Source of the DNA: Marinobacterium lutimaris
Lineage (GTDB): Bacteria > Pseudomonadota > Gammaproteobacteria > Pseudomonadales > Balneatricaceae
Assembly: GCF_900108065.1 (NCBI RefSeq)
Contig: NZ_FNVQ01000004.1
Location: 124,001-188,000, forward strand
DNA length: 64,000 bases
Direction of reading: 5' to 3'
Part shown: positions 29,717-38,757 of the stretch, piece by piece
Layout of the letters: the number at the start of each line of letters is the position of its first letter
Numbering within the stretch: position 1 is the first letter of the stretch
Made by a program: the position numbers and the translations under genes
Notes under the pieces: generated by a model
The model's input: the letters and a program-made list of their open reading frames with translations, nothing else
The model's database searches: none
Told to the model about the DNA's origin: nothing

Positions 29717-29725
29717 TGGTATAAT
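29717..29725 (+). promoter_or_regulatory. Extended -10 promoter of the TonB/sensor operon
   Basis: TGG TATAAT (TATAAT at 29720-29725) is an extended -10 element; a -35 is poorly conserved (TAGTTG, 17 nt upstream). The leader downstream contains the inverted repeat GCATGCT / AGCGTGC at 29739-29760. The first coding sequence starts at 29801. Confidence 0.5.
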
Positions 29726-29800: not shown

Positions 29801-29893
29801 ATGCTTGGATGGATTCTTGAAAACAATGGTTTCATCATCGAAGCCATCATTTTGGGCGCCATCGTTGTCTATGTCGGCCTCAAAATAAAATAA
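29801..29893 (+). CDS. 30-residue single-TM membrane peptide
   Basis: A short open frame: ATG at 29801, TAA at 29891-29893, with AAGGGA about 8 nt upstream. The peptide begins MLGWILENNGFIIEA and continues IILGAIVVYVGLKIK. One hydrophobic helix spans about residues 12-27, with a Lys-Ile-Lys end that should face the cytoplasm. It starts 24 nt before the first TonB receptor gene and shares its promoter. I know no family for it. It may be a small regulatory or complex-stabilising membrane protein, or a translated leader. The good ribosome binding site and the clear TM character argue against chance. Confidence 0.55.
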   Translation: MLGWILENNGFIIEAIILGAIVVYVGLKIK

Positions 29894-29917
29894 CCACGCA
29901 GCCGCCTGAACCGGTCG

Positions 29918-32071
29918 ATGAACATGCAGTCTCCAGGTATCACCCAAACACTGCTGATGAGTCTCGCACTCTTTGCCAGCGCCGCCGAGGCCTCTGATGA
30001 TCGGCTGCTGAGCGAAGCGGACTTCTTCGTCGATATTCCGGAAGTCACCTCCGCCACGCGGATGCCGCAGAAACTGTCGGAAGCCCCCGCATCGATGACC
30101 GTCATCGACCGCGAGGTTATCGAAGCATCCGGCTTTCAGACGATTCCCGACCTGATGCGTCTGGTGCCCGGCTTCCAGACCTATACGCTGAACAGCGACA
30201 CCCCTGCGACCTCTTATCACGGTGCCGCCGGCGAATACCCGAACCAGCTCGAAGTGATGATCGACGGGCGGTCCGTCTATCTGCCGCTGCTCTCCACCGT
30301 ACGCTGGGAAACGCTGGGTATATCCATACATGATGTAGAACGGATCGAAGTGGTCAGGGGCTCCAACGTCCCAACCCAGGGCTCCAACGCATTCCTGGGC
30401 TCGATCAATATCGTCACCCGTGAGCCCACCGCCACCAGCGGCCTGGACCTGACCACCCTGTACGGCAGCGATAACACCCGCAACGGCCATCTCAGCTTTG
30501 CCGACAGTAACGGTCTGATCAGCTATCGCATCAGCGCCAATCATGAACAGAGCGACGGCAACGATCACTACAGTAACTTTTATACCGGTGACTGGTTTGC
30601 CGAAGACGGCAGCGACGGCAAGTGGCAGGATGAACAAAGCCGTAACTACCTGAACCTGAGTACCACCTGGACCCCGGACCTGGTCAACAGTCTCTGGTTT
30701 CAGGCCGGCATCGACCGTGGCACCAGCCGCATGGGCGCACTGGACACCGAAGATGCGCACTTTGCCGACAGGGACCACGAAAGTGCCTTTGCCAGCGCCC
30801 GCTACAACCATCTTTATTCCGATACCGGTATGGTGCAGCTGAAGGCATCGCTGAACCGCCTTTCGCTTGAGACCCCAAAGGCCAACGCGGCCGAGGTTTT
30901 GACCGAGCTGGGCGTGCCAGGGCCCGCCAACTGCACCGCATCAGGGCTATCCGCATCCGCGCGCTCAATCTGTACGGCAAGGCTCCAGGCCGCACAGTCT
31001 CTGATCGATCTTAACGATTACCACCTGGTGGAAGAGAACGGCAAAACCCACACCGGCGATATTGAGCTGCAGATCAGTGACAAGCGGGAAAATCTCGCCG
31101 TTGCCGGCGGCATCGGTTACCGGCATATGGCCGCAAAGAGCGCTGTACTGCTGCAGAATGGCCAGGTCCACGAAGACCGCTCGCGCCTGTTTGCCAACGC
31201 CGATTGGGACTTCACCCCGCGCTGGCAGCTCAGCAGCGGCGTCATGTACGAATACAGCAGCGAAGCCAGCGAAGCGTTTTCCTATCGTAACGCGCTGATC
31301 TTTACGCCACGCCAGGGCAGCAGCCTGCGGCTGGGGTATTCCAGCAGCGAGCGCCTGCCTTCGCTGCTGGAGCGCTACGGCGAAGCCACGCTTTACCTGG
31401 GTGGCGATGAGTACGACCATATCCGTACCCCTACTCCGGATCTGGAACCTGAAGAGATATCCAGTTGGGAGCTGGGCTACTATCAGACCCTGCCGGGGCA
31501 GCGCAGCTATCTGGATCTGCGCATTTTCCGCGAAGAGCTGAACAACGTCGTCGACAGCTTCCTGCTCTATGCCGATGAAGAGGACGGTCGGGTGTTTACC
31601 TCCCGCAATACGGCCAGCTGGATCAACGAAGGCGCCGAGGCACAGCTGCGTTTTGAGCTGACTCCGCAGGTCTGGACATTACTTTCCTACGCCTACATCA
31701 ATACCAAGCACAGCAACTGGCGTACCGGCGAAGATAAAGTCTATGAGGGCAAGCGCTTCTTTAACGTTTCAAGCAACATCTCTCCGGAGCACACCGCCTC
31801 ACTGATGCTGAACTGGTCACCCGATCCAACGCTGGATCTGACCCTGTCGCACTATTACATGAGTGGCGTGCGCTGGATCGACTCCGTCGAACTGCCCGGA
31901 TACAACCGTACCGACCTGCGCGTGGCAAAACGCTGGCAGGTCAGCCGGGAAACCGAGCTGGAAGCCGCTGTTATCATGCAGAACGCCTTTGAGCCGGATT
32001 ACCAGGATTTTTATGAATTGAATGAGTTTGATCGCCGCACTTTCCTGCAATTCAGCATAAGGCACGATTGA
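29918..32071 (+). CDS. TonB-dependent outer-membrane receptor, first paralogue
   Basis: 717 residues. Signal peptide to about residue 25 (LALFASAAEA). The plug domain (about 45-170) has APASMTVIDREVIEASG, PDLMRLVPGFQTY and VERIEVVRGSN, the standard plug signature. The remaining 540 residues form a 22-strand barrel and end with an aromatic-rich strand (RRTFLQFSIRHD). A barrel loop carries two Cys about 15 residues apart (NCTASG and SICTAR), likely a disulfide. Energised by TonB-ExbBD, it imports a siderophore, metal complex or other large ligand; the ligand is unknown. It is followed 33 nt later by a paralogue. Confidence 0.9.
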   Translation: MNMQSPGITQTLLMSLALFASAAEASDDRLLSEADFFVDIPEVTSATRMPQKLSEAPASMTVIDREVIEASGFQTIPDLMRLVPGFQTYTLNSDTPATSYHGAAGEYPNQLEVMIDGRSVYLPLLSTVRWETLGISIHDVERIEVVRGSNVPTQGSNAFLGSINIVTREPTATSGLDLTTLYGSDNTRNGHLSFADSNGLISYRISANHEQSDGNDHYSNFYTGDWFAEDGSDGKWQDEQSRNYLNLSTTWTPDLVNSLWFQAGIDRGTSRMGALDTEDAHFADRDHESAFASARYNHLYSDTGMVQLKASLNRLSLETPKANAAEVLTELGVPGPANCTASGLSASARSICTARLQAAQSLIDLNDYHLVEENGKTHTGDIELQISDKRENLAVAGGIGYRHMAAKSAVLLQNGQVHEDRSRLFANADWDFTPRWQLSSGVMYEYSSEASEAFSYRNALIFTPRQGSSLRLGYSSSERLPSLLERYGEATLYLGGDEYDHIRTPTPDLEPEEISSWELGYYQTLPGQRSYLDLRIFREELNNVVDSFLLYADEEDGRVFTSRNTASWINEGAEAQLRFELTPQVWTLLSYAYINTKHSNWRTGEDKVYEGKRFFNVSSNISPEHTASLMLNWSPDPTLDLTLSHYYMSGVRWIDSVELPGYNRTDLRVAKRWQVSRETELEAAVIMQNAFEPDYQDFYELNEFDRRTFLQFSIRHD

Positions 32072-32104
32072 CCCGTTTTCCGCGTCAAGGATGATTCCCG
32101 ATCG

Positions 32105-34111
32105 ATGAAGTACCCTTTACCTCTAGCCCTGGCTTTAGCACTGTTCTCTCCGCTGCTATATGCGGATGAGTGCCGGTATCTGGTGGATATCCCGCAGGTA
32201 ACGGCTGTTTCCGGCAGCAGCCAGGGTATCAACGATGCCCCCGCATCGGTCACCATTCTGACCCGTGAAATCATCGATGCTTCGGGTGCGCGCACCATTC
32301 CTGAACTGCTGCAGCTGGTGCCCGGTTTCCAGAGCTACCGTGTGGACTCGCATAAATGGGGCGTGACCTACCACGGCATGGCGGACGACCTGCCCAACCG
32401 GCTGCTGTTCCAGGTGGATGGCCGTTCGGTATATCTGCCGCTGCTGTCCAGCGTAGACTGGTCTTCGCTGGGGCTGAGCCTGGACGATATCGACAGAATC
32501 GAGGTGGTGCGCGGCTCCAACGCAGCGACCCAGGGCTCCAACGCCTTCAATGGCTCGGTCAATATCATCACCCGCTCTGCACTGAAGGAGCAGGGCTTCC
32601 GCGCCAGCACCGAACTGGGTAACCGCGGCGCACGGAAACAGACGTTCAGCGCCAGCGACCGCTTCGGCTCCACCCACTTCCGTGTGTCTGCCGGCTATCA
32701 GGAGGATGACGGCAGCCAGGACTCGAACGACGGCTTTCGCGACCGCTACCTGAACCTGCAGCTGGTGCAGCCGCTCAACCTGCGCGACACGCTCACCTTC
32801 CGAGCCGGCGTCGACCAGGGATATATCATCAGCAGCACCGACTACACCCACGCCCGTGGACGCTACAGTGACAAGCGGGAGCACAAATCCCACCACCTGG
32901 CGCTGGATTATGAACACATCTACTCCGCCACCGGTACGCTGACCCTTTCCGCCTGGGAACAGTCGGTGGACCTGGAAACACCTACCGCGACCGATGAGCA
33001 ACTCGAGCGCTTTTTCGGGCCGGCGCTTTCCGGCGTAGATCTGGACGCTTTTCGCAGTGCCAACAGCGGCCTGCGGCCGGTAGCCGAACATGGCGATAGC
33101 CTGATCCGGGATCTGTCACTGCGGGTATCCGACAAGTTCGGTCCGGTGTCGGTCAGCTCCAGCCTTGGCTGGCGTGGTCTGTCCGAGAAAAGTGATCTGC
33201 TGCTGTACGATGGCAAGGTGAGCGAAGACCAGTGGCGGGCACAGTCAGCCCTGGAGTGGCGGGTGTCGCCGCACTGGACGCTGAACGGCGGCGCCCTGGT
33301 CGAGGCCTCCGACGAAAACAACGCCCTGTCTCTGCGTCAGTCGGTCAACTTCAAGCCAGACGAGCAGTCGGTGATCCGCCTCGGCTGGTCCCGCAGTGAG
33401 CGACTGCCCTCTATTCTGGAAACCAACCAGAACTCCAGTTTCTACCTGCCGGGCAGGGATGCTTATCTGGTGGACTATAAACAGTACGAATCGCTGGAGC
33501 CCGAGCTGAACCAGACCTGGGAGCTGGGCTACCACCGCCGCCTGGGGAGCAGCGACTTCATCGATCTGAGGCTGTTCCGGGAAAAAGTCAGCAACGCCAT
33601 ATACGGCACTGTCTATACCCTGTCCGAATCCGAGCGGGAGAGAGACTCGGTTATCAACAACAAGGTAACCGCCAGGGCCAACGGAGCGGGCTGGGTGACC
33701 AGCGGCATCGAGACGCAGGTCAAACTGCAACTAACACCTGATATCTACTCTCTGGCCAGTTACAGCTACGCCAGGAGCAGTGAGGAAACCGGTCTTCCGA
33801 CCTATATAGACACACCAGTACCTGAACATACGCTTTCGCTGTTGCTAAACTGGAGTCTGAGTGAAAATATGGAAGCCAGCGTTAATCACAGGTATCTTAG
33901 TGGCGTAGAATGGCTACAGAACGACAGGACGTTCACTGCTAGTCAGCATCAGACCAACCTCAGATTAGCCTATCGCTGGCCGCAAGTTGACTCTGGGCTC
34001 GAAACTGCTCTACTGATACAGGGCCTCGGCGATTCGCAGTGGCACGAGTTTTCGCAGGATAACAGTTACCATCGTGGCGTTTTCCTGCAGTTGAATCTTA
34101 CTTACCCATGA
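32105..34111 (+). CDS. TonB-dependent outer-membrane receptor, second paralogue
   Basis: 668 residues, clearly paralogous to the preceding gene: both have VDIPxVT, APASVTILTREIIDASG, LVPGFQSY, the block DGRSVYLPLLS and IEVVRGSN followed by TQGSNAF. Signal peptide to about residue 20. Barrel of about 500 residues ending FLQLNLTYP. The barrel loops differ from the first receptor, suggesting different ligands or a heteromeric division of labour. AAGGA precedes the ATG. The stop overlaps the next start as ATGA, so the binding protein is translationally coupled to this receptor. The last 400 bp are somewhat more AT-rich than the rest. Confidence 0.9.
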   Translation: MKYPLPLALALALFSPLLYADECRYLVDIPQVTAVSGSSQGINDAPASVTILTREIIDASGARTIPELLQLVPGFQSYRVDSHKWGVTYHGMADDLPNRLLFQVDGRSVYLPLLSSVDWSSLGLSLDDIDRIEVVRGSNAATQGSNAFNGSVNIITRSALKEQGFRASTELGNRGARKQTFSASDRFGSTHFRVSAGYQEDDGSQDSNDGFRDRYLNLQLVQPLNLRDTLTFRAGVDQGYIISSTDYTHARGRYSDKREHKSHHLALDYEHIYSATGTLTLSAWEQSVDLETPTATDEQLERFFGPALSGVDLDAFRSANSGLRPVAEHGDSLIRDLSLRVSDKFGPVSVSSSLGWRGLSEKSDLLLYDGKVSEDQWRAQSALEWRVSPHWTLNGGALVEASDENNALSLRQSVNFKPDEQSVIRLGWSRSERLPSILETNQNSSFYLPGRDAYLVDYKQYESLEPELNQTWELGYHRRLGSSDFIDLRLFREKVSNAIYGTVYTLSESERERDSVINNKVTARANGAGWVTSGIETQVKLQLTPDIYSLASYSYARSSEETGLPTYIDTPVPEHTLSLLLNWSLSENMEASVNHRYLSGVEWLQNDRTFTASQHQTNLRLAYRWPQVDSGLETALLIQGLGDSQWHEFSQDNSYHRGVFLQLNLTYP

Positions 34112-35052
34112 ACGGTACACCGGCAAGGATGGCGCGTGTGAGACCCTGGCTGCAAACAACATTGTTGTGGCTGCTTCTGTTAATGCCAGTGATGGCGAAG
34201 GCAGAATCCCCATTCGTTTTATTAAGCGATTCCGATGGCAGCTACAGCGAAATGCTCAAGGCGCTGACGGAGCACCACAACGGACTACTGGAGTCTGAGG
34301 TCCTGTCAGTACAGGCGCCTTCAGGCCACCCTTTTACTTTGGCAGTAGGCTCCCGGGCCTGCGAGGCTACGATCGCCGGTATCGATTCCGATGACTACGC
34401 CCTGTGCGTATTTCTGCCCTCGCAGACCTTTGCCGATCTGACCACCGGCCCCAAGGGGCAAGGGCTGCTTGCAGATAAACGCCTGAGTGCGATTTATCTG
34501 GATCAGCCACTGACACGACAGATGCTACTGGCCAAGATGCTCAAGCCGAGAATGCAAACCATCGGTACGGTACTGGGCCCCGGCAGTGACCGGCAGGCCT
34601 CATACTTTGCAGCTGCTGCCAGCTCCCTGGGGCTGACGCCGCTGATCGGCCGCCTGCAGGACAGCGAAAACCCGGTGCGCGAGCTGACCCCGATCATCGA
34701 GCAGAGCGATGTCTTTCTGCCGCTGCCCGACAGCTCGGTGTTCAACCGTGCCTCCGCCAAGTGGATTTTGTACCTGACGCTGAGAAACCGTATCCCGCTG
34801 ATCGGTTTCTCCGCGAGTTACGCCTACGCCGGCGCCGTGGTTTCGGTTCATTCGAATGTAGAACAGATTGCAAAACAGGCGATGGAGATCGTCAACCACA
34901 GAGGCATCAAGGATCCGCTGCCCGCACCGGCCTACCCGGATGACTTCAGTATCACCATCAACGAAACGGCAGCACGGAACCTTGGCCTGGCCCTGGCGCC
35001 CAGTGATGCCCTGATGATCGAACTGAAACGTCGCGACCGGGTCGGCCAGTGA
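34108..35052 (+). CDS. Periplasmic ABC-type substrate-binding protein without ABC partners
   Basis: 314 residues. A signal peptide (hydrophobic LLWLLLLMPVMAKA, cut near residue 32) precedes a two-lobed binding-protein fold of the ABC_sub_bind (YtrF/tryptophan-type) group: LSAIYLDQPLTRQ, the segment TIGTVLGPGSDRQ, FLPLPDSSVFNRASAKWIL and IPLIGFSASYAYAGAVVSV. No permease or ATPase is encoded nearby. It overlaps the second TonB receptor and lies 10 nt before the hybrid histidine kinase. A sensing role as a periplasmic partner of the kinase, like LuxP-LuxQ or TorT-TorS, is a good hypothesis. Confidence 0.8.
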   Translation: MNGTPARMARVRPWLQTTLLWLLLLMPVMAKAESPFVLLSDSDGSYSEMLKALTEHHNGLLESEVLSVQAPSGHPFTLAVGSRACEATIAGIDSDDYALCVFLPSQTFADLTTGPKGQGLLADKRLSAIYLDQPLTRQMLLAKMLKPRMQTIGTVLGPGSDRQASYFAAAASSLGLTPLIGRLQDSENPVRELTPIIEQSDVFLPLPDSSVFNRASAKWILYLTLRNRIPLIGFSASYAYAGAVVSVHSNVEQIAKQAMEIVNHRGIKDPLPAPAYPDDFSITINETAARNLGLALAPSDALMIELKRRDRVGQ

Positions 35053-35062
35053 GGCGGAGGCG

Positions 35063-37717
35063 ATGAGGCGCCGCTCACTGAGCATCCGCTACCGGGTGAT
35101 GGCACTCACCCTGCTTCCGATGACACTTCTGGCCCTGGTACTGGGCGGCTATTTCACCCTGACCCGCGTGGCAGAAACCCGCGCCAACCTGCTTGAGCAG
35201 GGCCAGGCCACGGCCCGATTGATCGCTTCCGCCTCCGAATTCGGTGTCCTCAGCGGCAACCGCCAACTGCTGCGCAGCCTCAGCAGCGGCCCAGTCCGGG
35301 CCGAAGAAGTGACCGATATTCTGTTCTACGACGCTGACTTCCGCCTGCTGTTCCGCAGTGGTGAGTTCGATGTCGAGGTCGCCCGCGATCAAAAGGAACC
35401 CCGTCTCTACCAGGGCACCTGGCACTTTGTTGCGCCGATTACCGCCCGCACCCTGCCGTTACAGGACAATCCTGAACTGCTCTCCATCGATGACGGCAGT
35501 GAAACACTCGGCTGGGTCGCGGTACTGATCTCCGCCCAGCCCACGCTGGCCCAAGAGCGCGCGATACTGATGCGTGGCGCAGGGCTGACGCTGATCTGCC
35601 TGGTTATCGCCCTGGCGCTGGCCAACCGCTTTGGCCGCCGCATCACCTACCCGGTGCTGGGCCTGACCCGGCTGATCGAACGCCTGCAGCGCGGTGAGCT
35701 TAACGCCCGCGCCGACACCAGCTACACCGGCGAGCTGCAAACCCTCGCCACCGGTATCAACCGCCTGGCGACGCGGGTACAGGAATCCAACCTGCAGTTC
35801 GAATTCCGTGTCGACAGCGCCACCCGGCGTCTGACCCAGACCCTGCGTCACCTGGAACGCCGTAATCGGGAACTGCAGCAGGAGCGCCAGCGCGCCGACG
35901 ACGCCAACCGCGCCAAGGATGAGTTCCTGGCCCGCATGAGCCATGAGCTGCGTACTCCGCTGACCTCGGTTATCGGCTTCACCGAACTGCTGGAAAGCAC
36001 CCGTCTGGACCGCCAGCAGAAGCAGTACCTGCAGATTGTCAGCCGCACCTCCGAGCTGCTGCTGACCATCATCGATGACATCCTCGATTTCTCACGCCTG
36101 GAATCCAACGCCATCGAGATCGAAGCGCTGGAATTCGACCTGACACAGCGCCTGTTTGACGTGCTCGAGGCCCAGTCACCGGTGGCGGCCCGCAAAGGGC
36201 TGGAACTGACCGCCAGCCTGCCGCCGGATCTGCCACGCCGGGTTATCGGCGATCCCACCCGACTCAGCCAGATACTCAACAACCTGCTCGGCAATGCGGT
36301 GAAGTTCACCGAGCGTGGCGAGGTGGAGCTTCAGGTCAGGATCAGCCGGCTGCCCGGCGACAATCCGCGCCTGCTGATCTGCGTGCGCGATACCGGTATC
36401 GGCATCGCCGCCTCCCGCATCGGCCACCTGTTCAGCGCCTTCACCCAGGGCGATAGCTCCATCAGCCGGCGCTTTGGTGGCTCGGGCCTGGGTCTTGTGA
36501 TTGCACAGCGCCTTACCGAACTGATGGGCGGAAAAATCCACCTCGACAGCGTCGAGGGCCAGGGCACCCGCGTGCATCTGGATCTGCCACTGCGCTATGC
36601 ATCGGTTGAAGGTGGCATTCACTGCTTTGAGAACCAGCCGGAGATGCCGCTGCTGCTGTATGAGCCGCACGCCGGCAGCCGCGCCATGCTGTTACAGCAA
36701 CTGCAGATTCTGCCGATTCCCGTTATCCCTATCCGCCATCTGGAGGAGATGCGTGACTACTGCCAGGATAACGCCAGTTGCACGATGGTGGTCGGCGTCA
36801 GCCCACTGGAAGCGGGCACGCGCCATGTGCAGCAGCTGTGCGACAGGATTCGTGCTCATACCAGCGCACCGCTGATCTTCCTGATTCCCGGGCGCGGCGC
36901 GATTCATCTGCATGCCGACTCTCTCAAGGTGCTGTCGAAGCCCCCACGCTGGCGGGAGCTGCTCGGTGCCGTGGGGCTGGCGGTGGACGAAAGCCACAGC
37001 CGCTCCAACCCTGCCCTGGAGACACAGCTGCCCTATCCGCTTGAGATCCTGGTGGCCGAAGACAATGAGTTTAACCGCCTGCTGATCCATCGCCTGCTGG
37101 AGGGCCTGGGTGCGCGGGTTACCGAGGTTGGCTCAGGCCAGGAGGTGCTCGATTACCTGGACAGTTCCGGCGAACCGGATCTGATCCTGATGGATGTACA
37201 CATGCCGGGCATGGACGGTATCGAGGCGACCCGTCGGGTGCGTCTGCGCTCGAAAACGCTGCCGATCTTCGCCCTGACCGCCAACGTGGTGCCCCACGAG
37301 CACCTGGCACTGGAGGCGGCAGGCATCAATGGCCTTATGCTGAAGCCGATCAACGTACCGGAGCTGCTGCGCGCGCTGATAGGGCTGTGCGAAGAAAAGA
37401 CCGGCCTGTCTCACGATACGCCTGCGGCAACACCGGAATTGACCAATTCGCTGACCAACCTTACCTCGCCGGACAGCCTGCAGCAGGAGGTACGCCGCCT
37501 GGCCCAGGAGATCATGCGCTCGGTCTGGGAGAAAGACCGCAATCAGGTTCGCGCCTACGCCCACCAGTTGATCGGCGTCGCCGGGCTTTACGATATGCCG
37601 GTACTGGAGAGCTGCACCTCCGAACTTCAGCAGGCCGCGCAGGAAGGCGATATGCGAGCGCTCTGGGAAACCAGTTCAAGGCTGAAGCGCGTAGCGGATC
37701 AGGAACAGCTGGAATAA
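35063..37717 (+). CDS. BarA-like hybrid sensor histidine kinase with receiver and Hpt domains
   Basis: 884 residues. TM1 (about 12-33), a periplasmic domain of about 130 residues, TM2 (about 172-190) and HAMP (190-245). A coiled coil leads to HisKA with H294 in MSHELRTPL. The HATPase (about 395-512) has NLLGNAVKF, DTGIGI and GGSGLGL. A degenerate receiver-like region (about 525-640) lacks the Asp. A full receiver (660-775) has AEDNE and DVHMPGMDG with D711, and the C-terminal Hpt has H834 in AYAHQLIG. This is the BarA/GacS plan. No response regulator is encoded nearby, so the phosphate must go to an unlinked one. Last gene of the TonB/binding-protein operon; REP elements follow. Confidence 0.92.
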   Translation: MRRRSLSIRYRVMALTLLPMTLLALVLGGYFTLTRVAETRANLLEQGQATARLIASASEFGVLSGNRQLLRSLSSGPVRAEEVTDILFYDADFRLLFRSGEFDVEVARDQKEPRLYQGTWHFVAPITARTLPLQDNPELLSIDDGSETLGWVAVLISAQPTLAQERAILMRGAGLTLICLVIALALANRFGRRITYPVLGLTRLIERLQRGELNARADTSYTGELQTLATGINRLATRVQESNLQFEFRVDSATRRLTQTLRHLERRNRELQQERQRADDANRAKDEFLARMSHELRTPLTSVIGFTELLESTRLDRQQKQYLQIVSRTSELLLTIIDDILDFSRLESNAIEIEALEFDLTQRLFDVLEAQSPVAARKGLELTASLPPDLPRRVIGDPTRLSQILNNLLGNAVKFTERGEVELQVRISRLPGDNPRLLICVRDTGIGIAASRIGHLFSAFTQGDSSISRRFGGSGLGLVIAQRLTELMGGKIHLDSVEGQGTRVHLDLPLRYASVEGGIHCFENQPEMPLLLYEPHAGSRAMLLQQLQILPIPVIPIRHLEEMRDYCQDNASCTMVVGVSPLEAGTRHVQQLCDRIRAHTSAPLIFLIPGRGAIHLHADSLKVLSKPPRWRELLGAVGLAVDESHSRSNPALETQLPYPLEILVAEDNEFNRLLIHRLLEGLGARVTEVGSGQEVLDYLDSSGEPDLILMDVHMPGMDGIEATRRVRLRSKTLPIFALTANVVPHEHLALEAAGINGLMLKPINVPELLRALIGLCEEKTGLSHDTPAATPELTNSLTNLTSPDSLQQEVRRLAQEIMRSVWEKDRNQVRAYAHQLIGVAGLYDMPVLESCTSELQQAAQEGDMRALWETSSRLKRVADQEQLE

Positions 37718-37897: not shown

Positions 37898-38275
37898 TCA
37901 AAACTCCCGCGTAAACGGGGACTCTCGGATAATTCGCTCCAGCTCATCAAGCACCCGCTTGATCCGCTCACGCCCTGCCCGGTCGTACAGATAACCGTCC
38001 ATGCCCCCAGAGGCGGCAGGCTCGCCATCAAGCCCTTCGTGAATACTGATGCAGCGGCGGCGCAACTGCTCGAGCTCAGCATCATGGATAATCGGCATCC
38101 CCAGGAACATATCCCAGGCTTCCACCGAGGTGGTGCGGTTCATCACGCCGGCGAGGATATCTCGGATCTCCTCGCGGCTGGGTCTGTAGGCTGGCGCGCG
38201 GCCAAAACTGAGAAAGCACACCAGCACCAGCAGGATAACCAGCGTCAGTACGAAAATCAGGACGAATTCGCCCAT
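37898..38275 (-). CDS. Small membrane-anchored hypothetical protein
   Basis: 125 residues. One N-terminal TM helix (FVLIFVLTLVILLVLVCFL) followed by a cytoplasmic helical domain with RPSREEIRDILAGVMNRT, WDMFLGMPIIHDAELEQLR and ERIKRVLDELERIIRE. I do not recognise a characterised family. The start overlaps the stop of the DUF2489 gene by one base (TAATG), so the two are one translational unit, and both have an N-terminal anchor with a cytoplasmic helical domain. Confidence 0.75.
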   Translation of the reverse strand: MGEFVLIFVLTLVILLVLVCFLSFGRAPAYRPSREEIRDILAGVMNRTTSVEAWDMFLGMPIIHDAELEQLRRRCISIHEGLDGEPAASGGMDGYLYDRAGRERIKRVLDELERIIRESPFTREF

Positions 38276-38757
38276 TACTGCATCTGCTCAAGCGGGTAAC
38301 GCTGCAGCTCAGTCATCGCCGTGCGTACCTGCTCGCCATGCTCCTTCTCCAGCTGCGCCATCTGCTTCTGGTACTCCCGCTTTTCTGCGCGACTCAGCGC
38401 TTTCCAGTCCTCCAGGAACGGAATGTGCTCGGTGGCCCGGTAGACCCGCTCAATCACGGCGAAGTTTTCGTGCTGGTGCAGATGCGGCGCCAGGTTATCC
38501 AGCATCACTTTGACGCGGATACAGCCCTCGGTCATGGTCATTTTCTCGTCGTTCAGCACAGCAGAGGCGATGATACGGATACTGTCGATCAGATAGCGGC
38601 GCTGCTCCTGGGCCTGCTGTTCATATTCGCGGGTCTGCCGCTCCTGCTGTTCGCGCAGCTCGCGAGCCGACTTGAGCTGGCGGTAGATAAGGCTACTCAG
38701 CAACACAATGGCGACCAGGCCGATGGCGATCAGCGTATAGGTCAAACTAGGACTCAT
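38275..38757 (-). CDS. DUF2489 family membrane-anchored protein
   Basis: 160 residues. N-terminal TM helix (about 6-26), then a Glu/Gln/Arg-rich coiled coil (KSARELREQQERQTREYEQQ, about 29-53), then a helical domain with YLIDSIRIIASAVLNDEKM and TEGCIRVKVMLDNLAPHL. This pattern fits DUF2489, a family of unknown function in Pseudomonas and marine gammaproteobacteria. It is coupled to the gene at 37898. Three 13-bp tandem repeats lie immediately upstream of its start. Confidence 0.8.
   Translation of the reverse strand: MSPSLTYTLIAIGLVAIVLLSSLIYRQLKSARELREQQERQTREYEQQAQEQRRYLIDSIRIIASAVLNDEKMTMTEGCIRVKVMLDNLAPHLHQHENFAVIERVYRATEHIPFLEDWKALSRAEKREYQKQMAQLEKEHGEQVRTAMTELQRYPLEQMQ

Follow-up and report, generated by a model that had tools for sequence, protein, structure and literature searches.

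The window considered here, a stretch of 64,000 nucleotides (nt) from Marinobacterium lutimaris (GCF_900108065.1, contig NZ_FNVQ01000004.1, positions 124,001 to 188,000; genome G000 of 5.57 Mb, contig C11), carries five tandem forward-strand genes that bring together TonB-dependent receptors (TBDRs), a periplasmic solute-binding protein (SBP) and a hybrid sensor histidine kinase. In order, these are a small open reading frame (ORF) of 30 amino acids (29801–29893) that matches nothing in Pfam or NCBIfam; TBDR1, a receptor of 717 amino acids with plug and beta-barrel by Pfam (29918–32071); TBDR2, of 668 amino acids, a diverged duplicate of TBDR1 judged by Pfam, a six-frame search and identity (32105–34111); an orphan SBP of the PF04392 type, 314 amino acids long (34108–35052); and a kinase of the GacS/BarA superfamily, 884 amino acids long and placed by Pfam, NCBIfam and trees (35063–37717). 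The gaps between them are 24, 33, -4 (an overlap) and 10 nt. By Pfam, the kinase reads as transmembrane segment, sCache_4, transmembrane segment, HAMP, HisKA, HATPase_c, Response_reg and Hpt, with the periplasmic sCache_4 sensor domain at residues 35–164 (35165–35554), the receiver at residues 662–772 (37046–37378) and the Hpt domain at residues 806–877 (37478–37693; 25.4 bits, cut-off 24.6). There is no separate response regulator among the five operon proteins, and no ATP-binding cassette (ABC) permease or ATPase among the ten flanking ORFs scanned, both by Pfam. A preliminary description of this DNA had claimed the tandem with its spacings of 33 nt, an overlap and 10 nt, the complete Hpt and receiver domains, and the lack of both an ABC transporter and a regulator, and ORF coordinates and Pfam agree with it on all these points. 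It spoke of five genes and named four; the one left unnamed was presumably the small ORF at 29801, now recognized as a conserved coding gene.

The SBP is the sole PF04392 match in the window genome, and it passes the family cut-off of 25.9 bits only barely, at 26.0 bits (25.6 in the six-frame search, and 26.1 with its neighbours). Its AlphaFold2 model (mean predicted local distance difference test, pLDDT, of 92.8) has the type-I binding-protein fold, with 3lkv, 3lft and 6hni/6hnj (CD0873) as the best PDB matches and 2hj9, the complex of LuxP with a LuxQ domain, at rank 20. The nearest solved structures are the aromatic-amino-acid SBPs TrpX (3lft), CD0873 (6hni) and VC_1101 (3lkv), all of PF04392, and these are reported to hold Phe, Trp and Tyr (PMC6816091). 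We do not claim these amino acids as ligands of the window SBP, because its N-lobe motif, compared by eye in an alignment, is unlike that of the aromatic-amino-acid binders. In addition, CD0873 is reported to belong to an ABC importer (PMC6816091), whereas the window SBP has no linked transporter. In the second half of the protein, both alignments keep residues D208, Y238, A241, G242 and A243 without exception. Among named organisms with the unit, the closest is Marinobacterium mangrovicola (L072), whose SBP is 84% identical.

The two receptors are 36% identical to each other; the barrel of TBDR2 is recognized at 76 bits in the six-frame search, and its plug only at an E-value of 0.1 in Pfam. 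Neither has a Pfam match to the N-terminal signalling (STN) domain at E 0.1, which sets them apart from FecA-type TonB transducers, where the receptor carries this domain.

To follow the unit across genomes, a profile of 21 SBPs was run against 369 genomes of the class, taking the best six candidates at most per genome. Together, 90 class loci (the window's own excluded) and 33 loci of relatives make up 123 loci, here called G loci, and a separate scan of named genomes gave 45 more; the two sets overlap in genomes, and their counts are given apart except for the sensor-domain set below. SBPs scoring at least 60 bits were taken as the family proper, which comprises 113 G loci (102 complete upstream, 110 complete downstream, 100 complete on both sides), and SBP relatives occur in at least 82 of the 369 class genomes. 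Among the 100 fully complete loci, 71 read TBDR-SBP-kinase and three TBDR-SBP-GGDEF, and the first of these orders is kept in 40 of the 41 named loci whose two flanks are complete, which argues that the arrangement is beyond chance; the preliminary description had proposed looking for the operon elsewhere, and it is there. A TBDR was found at 82 of the 102 upstream-complete loci, so that the receptor is a conserved neighbour of the SBP; two or more receptors occur at 6 of those 102 loci and at 3 of 42 named ones. On the other side, a signalling protein directly follows the SBP at 100 of 110 loci (94 kinases, and six proteins with a GGDEF motif only), with a median SBP-kinase gap of -4 nt and a gap between -30 and 20 nt in 78 of the 94. 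Closer to the window, the family f1, which includes Marinobacterium, Neptuniibacter and Pontibacterium, accounts for 36 of 57 genomes of relatives. The SBP is present in 30 of these 57, window genome included, and 24 of the 36 f1 genomes have it together with an sCache_4 kinase, 23 of them (all but G014) also with a TBDR immediately 5'.

An SBP homologue sitting beside an ABC transporter of its own had been named as one of the observations that would refute a sensing role. In the family proper, no SBP of the 113 has a same-strand ABC ATPase within 4 kb by motif (Walker A plus LSGGQ/E; permeases were not searched separately), and the single ATPase-like ORF within that distance lies on the opposite strand. 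ABC operons by motif appear only among the ten remoter loci below 60 bits, at L324, L327 and L330, all with SBPs below 45 bits; at L329, also low-scoring, an ABC ATPase lies upstream and a kinase downstream. At four more of these loci (L068, L322, L325, L326), the SBP directly precedes a GGDEF protein, with an EAL domain confirmed by Pfam in L068, and this is possibly another pairing of an SBP with cyclic di-GMP (c-di-GMP) signalling; three of these proteins stand in the control set described below and do not match the sensor-domain profile.

Single genomes add further observations. G031 carries two units, one with an sCache hybrid kinase (L059) and one ordered regulator-TBDR-SBP-short kinase (L066). 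G017 has a lone operon-type kinase (L196, 5572–8304, reverse strand) with no adjacent TBDR or SBP and an ORF-poor stretch of about 1.5 kb upstream; tblastn with the proteins of three relatives and of the window found no remnant of either. At L070 (7105–12706, reverse strand), an SBP-kinase pair stands two ORFs after a TraI-like relaxase/helicase gene (PF07514), so this related module may lie on a mobile element, judging from its neighbourhood.

What stays constant next to the SBP is the sensor domain rather than the output. A profile of the periplasmic domain was built from 35 rows (the window and 34 named loci) and tested on 146 SBP-adjacent proteins, training rows included; in that set L100 was read in the wrong frame, and the kinases lying 5' of the SBP in L285 and L287 were missed. 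The profile matches 137 of the 146 at E 0.001 and 140 after iteration, among them the short kinases L064, L066 and L302. Four proteins (L255, L260, L268, L274) have the order sCache_4-HAMP-PAS-GGDEF-EAL; all four, scanned with Pfam, exceed the sCache_4 cut-off, and a TBDR is present in three of the four loci. Scored outside the training set, 62 hybrid kinases have a median of 55.9 bits (minimum 22.2), six GGDEF proteins one of 45.6 (minimum 2.4) and six short kinases one of 25.4 (minimum 5.0). In a control set of 54 kinase and cyclase entries, in which several GacS controls are listed twice, the 24 matches are all GacS-type, SBP-linked or the lone kinase of G017, and the 30 without a match include the GacS-type L204 and L205 (each listed twice). 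The domain is homologous to the detector domain of GacS, 5o7j (profile match E 2.8e-11). This constancy supports, and is our strongest argument for, reading the SBP and the sensor domain as one input module that would be kept while the output is swapped.

The first gene of the unit, the small ORF, encodes MLGWILENNGFIIEAIILGAIVVYVGLKIK. Related small ORFs lie 5' of the TBDR in most f1 operons and share the pattern W-I-x(3)-N-G-F-I-x-E-A ... Y-x-G, with W4, N9, G10, F11, E14, A15 and G26 invariant in an alignment of 31 rows. Among 32 distinct sequences, the differences at codon positions 1, 2 and 3 amount to 0.33, 0.14 and 0.58, against about 0.75 for unaligned upstream DNA. In a whole-genome search of the 57 genomes, 19 have exactly one copy, and these are 19 of the 24 genomes with an f1-type unit and none of the 33 others (Fisher p 7e-11, kinship ignored), although the latter include remoter versions of the unit (G017, G041, G045, G051, G054); among the fetched loci outside f1 it was not found either. 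The 30-residue ORF is therefore a real conserved coding gene, found in these genomes only with the f1-type unit. Its product has one hydrophobic stretch with a conserved Glu inside and a basic tail, and looks like a small single-pass membrane subunit. An ORF that opens the unit and ends 24 nt before the receptor start could also encode a leader peptide regulating receptor translation, and not a working protein; we consider this unlikely, given the seven residues invariant in 31 sequences, a divergence lowest at codon position 2, both pointing to constraint on the protein, and no Rfam element (riboswitch or other) between 29000 and 38500. Upstream of the gene, a TAGAAT/TAAAAT-like box stands about 10 bases before the start codon in L047, L048, L081, L083, L085, L093 and L112, as though the mRNA of those loci had hardly any leader. 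By eye, the window shows a TATAAT with an upstream TGG at 29720; the promoter scan did not report it.

The kinase shares its domain order and a homologous detector domain with GacS/BarA, and it holds the sole sCache_4 match of the window genome. Its N-terminal model (pLDDT 76.9) resembles WalK, CitA and other Cache/PAS-like sensors. It differs from GacS/BarA in scoring 523 bits against the curated BarA model (cut-off 890, which may be tuned to enterobacteria), in its place in trees, and in belonging to a family without a GacA over the curated cut-off. The window kinase clades with unit kinases of Porticoccaceae and Cellvibrionales records, apart from canonical GacS, with a support of 98/98; in a second tree, of 91 kinases, the window clade (100/97) also holds the long-branched L062 and L296 and the kinase L313, which comes from the gac locus described below, and the deep branches are unsettled. 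In the SBP tree, f1 and Porticoccaceae group together (84, quick method), which suits joint inheritance with the kinase. The usual gac-locus neighbours cysM, rlmD, relA, pdxJ and recO have no match in the stretches fetched around the window operon (L071) or the f1 loci L039–L061. We considered whether the window kinase is GacS itself, as its sole sCache_4 match might suggest; the locus, the missing GacA and the tree together make this unlikely, the tree by itself being insufficient. The kinase is probably a relative of GacS.

The preliminary description had looked to regulators of the GacA/UvrY type as phosphotransfer partners, and this part of it is not supported. Scored against the curated cut-off of 280 bits, the best 42 candidates at most per genome gave no GacA/UvrY in any of the 36 f1 genomes (best 215 bits, five reaching 200); of the order's other 21 genomes, 12 have one. 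All 72 candidates of the window genome were scored; the best reaches 161 bits, and the top three, UvrY-like, lie at 133–161. At 13 G loci, a profile finds a same-strand gene for a NarL-type regulator no more than 5.5 kb upstream of the SBP, and all eight of those scanned by Pfam (L062, L064, L066, L242, L266, L271, L296, L302) have REC plus GerE. Because no f1 genome has a GacA over the cut-off and NarL-type regulators stand at these loci, the partner of the window kinase is probably an unlinked NarL-type regulator.

SBPs of this family also occur at the locus of gacS itself. In 42 genomes of the class, an SBP lies near the genes that flank gacS, identified by Pfam as cysM-, rlmD- or relA-like genes diverging on one side and pdxJ- or recO-like genes on the other; in E. 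coli, too, barA adjoins rlmD. Both flanks are present in 21 of the 42 and one only in the other 21 (in L296 it is relA), and the one-sided half may hold some genomes that are not at the true locus. A TBDR accompanies 30 of the 42 SBPs, a kinase lies directly downstream of 38, and 29 have both; in L285 the kinase is upstream of the SBP. GacA exceeds the curated cut-off in 24 of 40 of these genomes, reaches at least 250 bits in 33 and at least 200 bits in 38, and exactly one sensor matches the sCache_4 profile in 27 of the 40. The SBP-linked gac-locus kinases L251, L303 and L307 fall within the group of canonical GacS (89/96) in the 91-kinase tree, where the placement of E. coli BarA is unsettled. 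We regard the link of the SBP to GacS as a lead, short of proof.

Taken together, we favour, with a probability of roughly two in three, a one-way sensing unit. One or both TonB-dependent receptors would admit a scarce ligand through the outer membrane; in the periplasm the SBP would capture it, and the loaded (or empty) SBP would dock on the sCache_4 domain and alter kinase activity. Phosphate would then pass from His to Asp to His (HisKA, receiver, Hpt) and on to an unlinked response regulator, most likely a NarL/FixJ-type protein other than GacA. The 30-residue membrane peptide would probably be an accessory of the receptor-kinase assembly. Because no permease is linked, the ligand may serve as information rather than, or before, food.

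Several observations weigh against this reading. No TBDR was found at 20 of the 102 upstream-complete loci, and the microprotein is missing in G014, G016, G019, G028 and G029, five of the 24 genomes with an f1-type unit. L318 and L323 have GGDEF proteins after weaker SBPs that do not match the sensor-domain profile at E 0.001. The shared sensor domain may in part come from the common descent of GacS-type sensors and not from SBP docking. In a distance-matrix test of co-evolution over 99 pairs, SBP distances correlate more closely with those of the kinase core (partial r 0.53) than with those of the sensor domain (partial r 0.19), a domain that is short and saturated, and this result leans against docking; of the 45 named loci the test admitted no more than 18, the others having been dropped as duplicates of G genomes, and it left out effectors below 250 bits to the kinase profile. 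The preliminary description had likened the unit to LuxP-LuxQ and TorT-TorS, and by comparison this stands in part: the SBP is tied to a TBDR and a sensor protein in many genomes, it has a type-I fold with LuxP among its structure matches, and the sensor domain is largely constant under changing outputs, while the co-evolution test does not favour a link between SBP and sensor domain. Lastly, His97 is reported to be essential in GacS, and Thr98 in BarA (PMC8639471). The position of GacS His97, occupied by Thr in BarA in our alignment, is Arg in all 24 f1 members, and given this the f1 Cache domain may keep a direct ligand pocket.

One alternative draws in part on this last point: the Cache pocket of the kinase would itself sense a small ligand, as has been supposed for GacS and BarA, and the TBDR and SBP would scavenge the same ligand for an unlinked permease, their co-location reflecting co-regulation. 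The homology of sCache_4 to the GacS detector domain, the invariant Arg and the co-evolution result all favour it, as does the report that BarA answers acetate and formate through the same domain (PMC8639471). The His97 position itself is not kept where an SBP is linked, with His in 8 of 11 GacS without an SBP, a set that excludes L206 for its upstream SBP gene, and in 5 of 37 SBP-linked gac-locus sensors (p 0.0004, kinship ignored). The absence of a same-strand ATPase motif near the 113 family-proper SBPs (unlinked permeases were not searched for), the standing of the SBP as the sole PF04392 protein of its genome, and its persistence beside sensor proteins of differing output speak against this alternative as well, and overall we judge it rather unlikely. 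It is quite improbable that the SBP no longer binds a small molecule and is a fixed adaptor through which the kinase would read the TonB state or the occupancy of the receptor, an idea to which its differing N-lobe motif and the QseG-QseE pair, in which an accessory protein reportedly activates the kinase, lend some colour, as the residues invariant in its second half are those expected of a ligand cleft and some units have no TBDR at all.

Beyond the window, a broader version of the one-way sensing unit can be put forward tentatively, and we think it somewhat more likely to fail than to hold. The TBDR-SBP pair would be the ancestral input of the GacS family, and the GacS signal would be the TonB-imported ligand of the SBP. 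In many gammaproteobacterial families GacS, together with GacA, would have stayed at its old locus 3' of an orphan SBP and usually a TBDR; other lineages, E. coli among them, would lack the pair beside the kinase and rely on the Cache pocket alone. The Marinobacterium side branch would have kept the input, gained the 30-residue subunit and switched to another regulator. Should the SBP prove to be the receptor of these kinases, its ligand could be found by ordinary binding assays, and the long-standing question of the GacS signal would become directly testable.

The genes around the operon are unrelated to it by Pfam. Upstream lie ORFs for a GGDEF-EAL protein, a sorbitol-dehydrogenase-like subunit, a GMC oxidoreductase and a cytochrome c, and downstream an ORF of 125 amino acids with no Pfam match (37898–38275, reverse strand), an adjoining DUF2489 gene (38275–38757, reverse strand), cytochromes c, a sulfate permease and a Usp protein. 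At many f1 loci, ORFs of about 122–127 and 155–183 amino acids likewise lie convergent directly 3' of the kinase, and the convergent 125-residue ORF and DUF2489 are perhaps a conserved pair.

Pairs of SBP and kinase are known, and many SBP-activated kinases are described as encoded beside their sbp gene (PMC11113362). In the titles and abstract openings retrieved from the open-access literature, we found no SBP-kinase pair that is TonB-fed, has a dedicated membrane microprotein or lies at gacS; the review "The Evanescent GacS Signal" (PMC7695008) makes no mention of TonB, solute, synteny or cysM in a search for these terms. As in SBP-dependent kinases, the SBP gene here lies beside the kinase gene, has no ABC transporter of its own and encodes a periplasmic binding-protein fold; the linked permease and ATPase of an importer SBP were not found in the window flanks by Pfam, nor was a same-strand ATPase by motif in relatives of the family proper. 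The closest parallels are LuxP-LuxQ, in which a type-I binding protein also stands beside a hybrid kinase and whose complex is among the fold matches of our SBP, and TorT-TorS, likewise a binding protein with a hybrid kinase, whose TorS model matches the window kinase at 325 bits, below the cut-off of 676.5. LuxPQ senses autoinducer-2 in Vibrio, with no ABC transporter, TonB receptor or microprotein known, and LuxQ has tandem PAS domains; TorT-TorS responds to trimethylamine N-oxide, with a helical TorS sensor domain and no known TonB receptor. The window unit differs from LuxPQ in its TonB receptors, its microprotein, its single sCache_4 domain and its PF04392 SBP, and its sensor domain, GacS-like by sequence, is not of the LuxQ or TorS fold. 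By analogy, the kinase may work like LuxQ and TorS although it stands outside their families. In Vibrio cholerae, NspS-MbaA uses an SBP, of a different family and with no known TonB receptor, as the input of a membrane c-di-GMP protein, an arrangement that is mirrored by the SBP-GGDEF-EAL variants found here.

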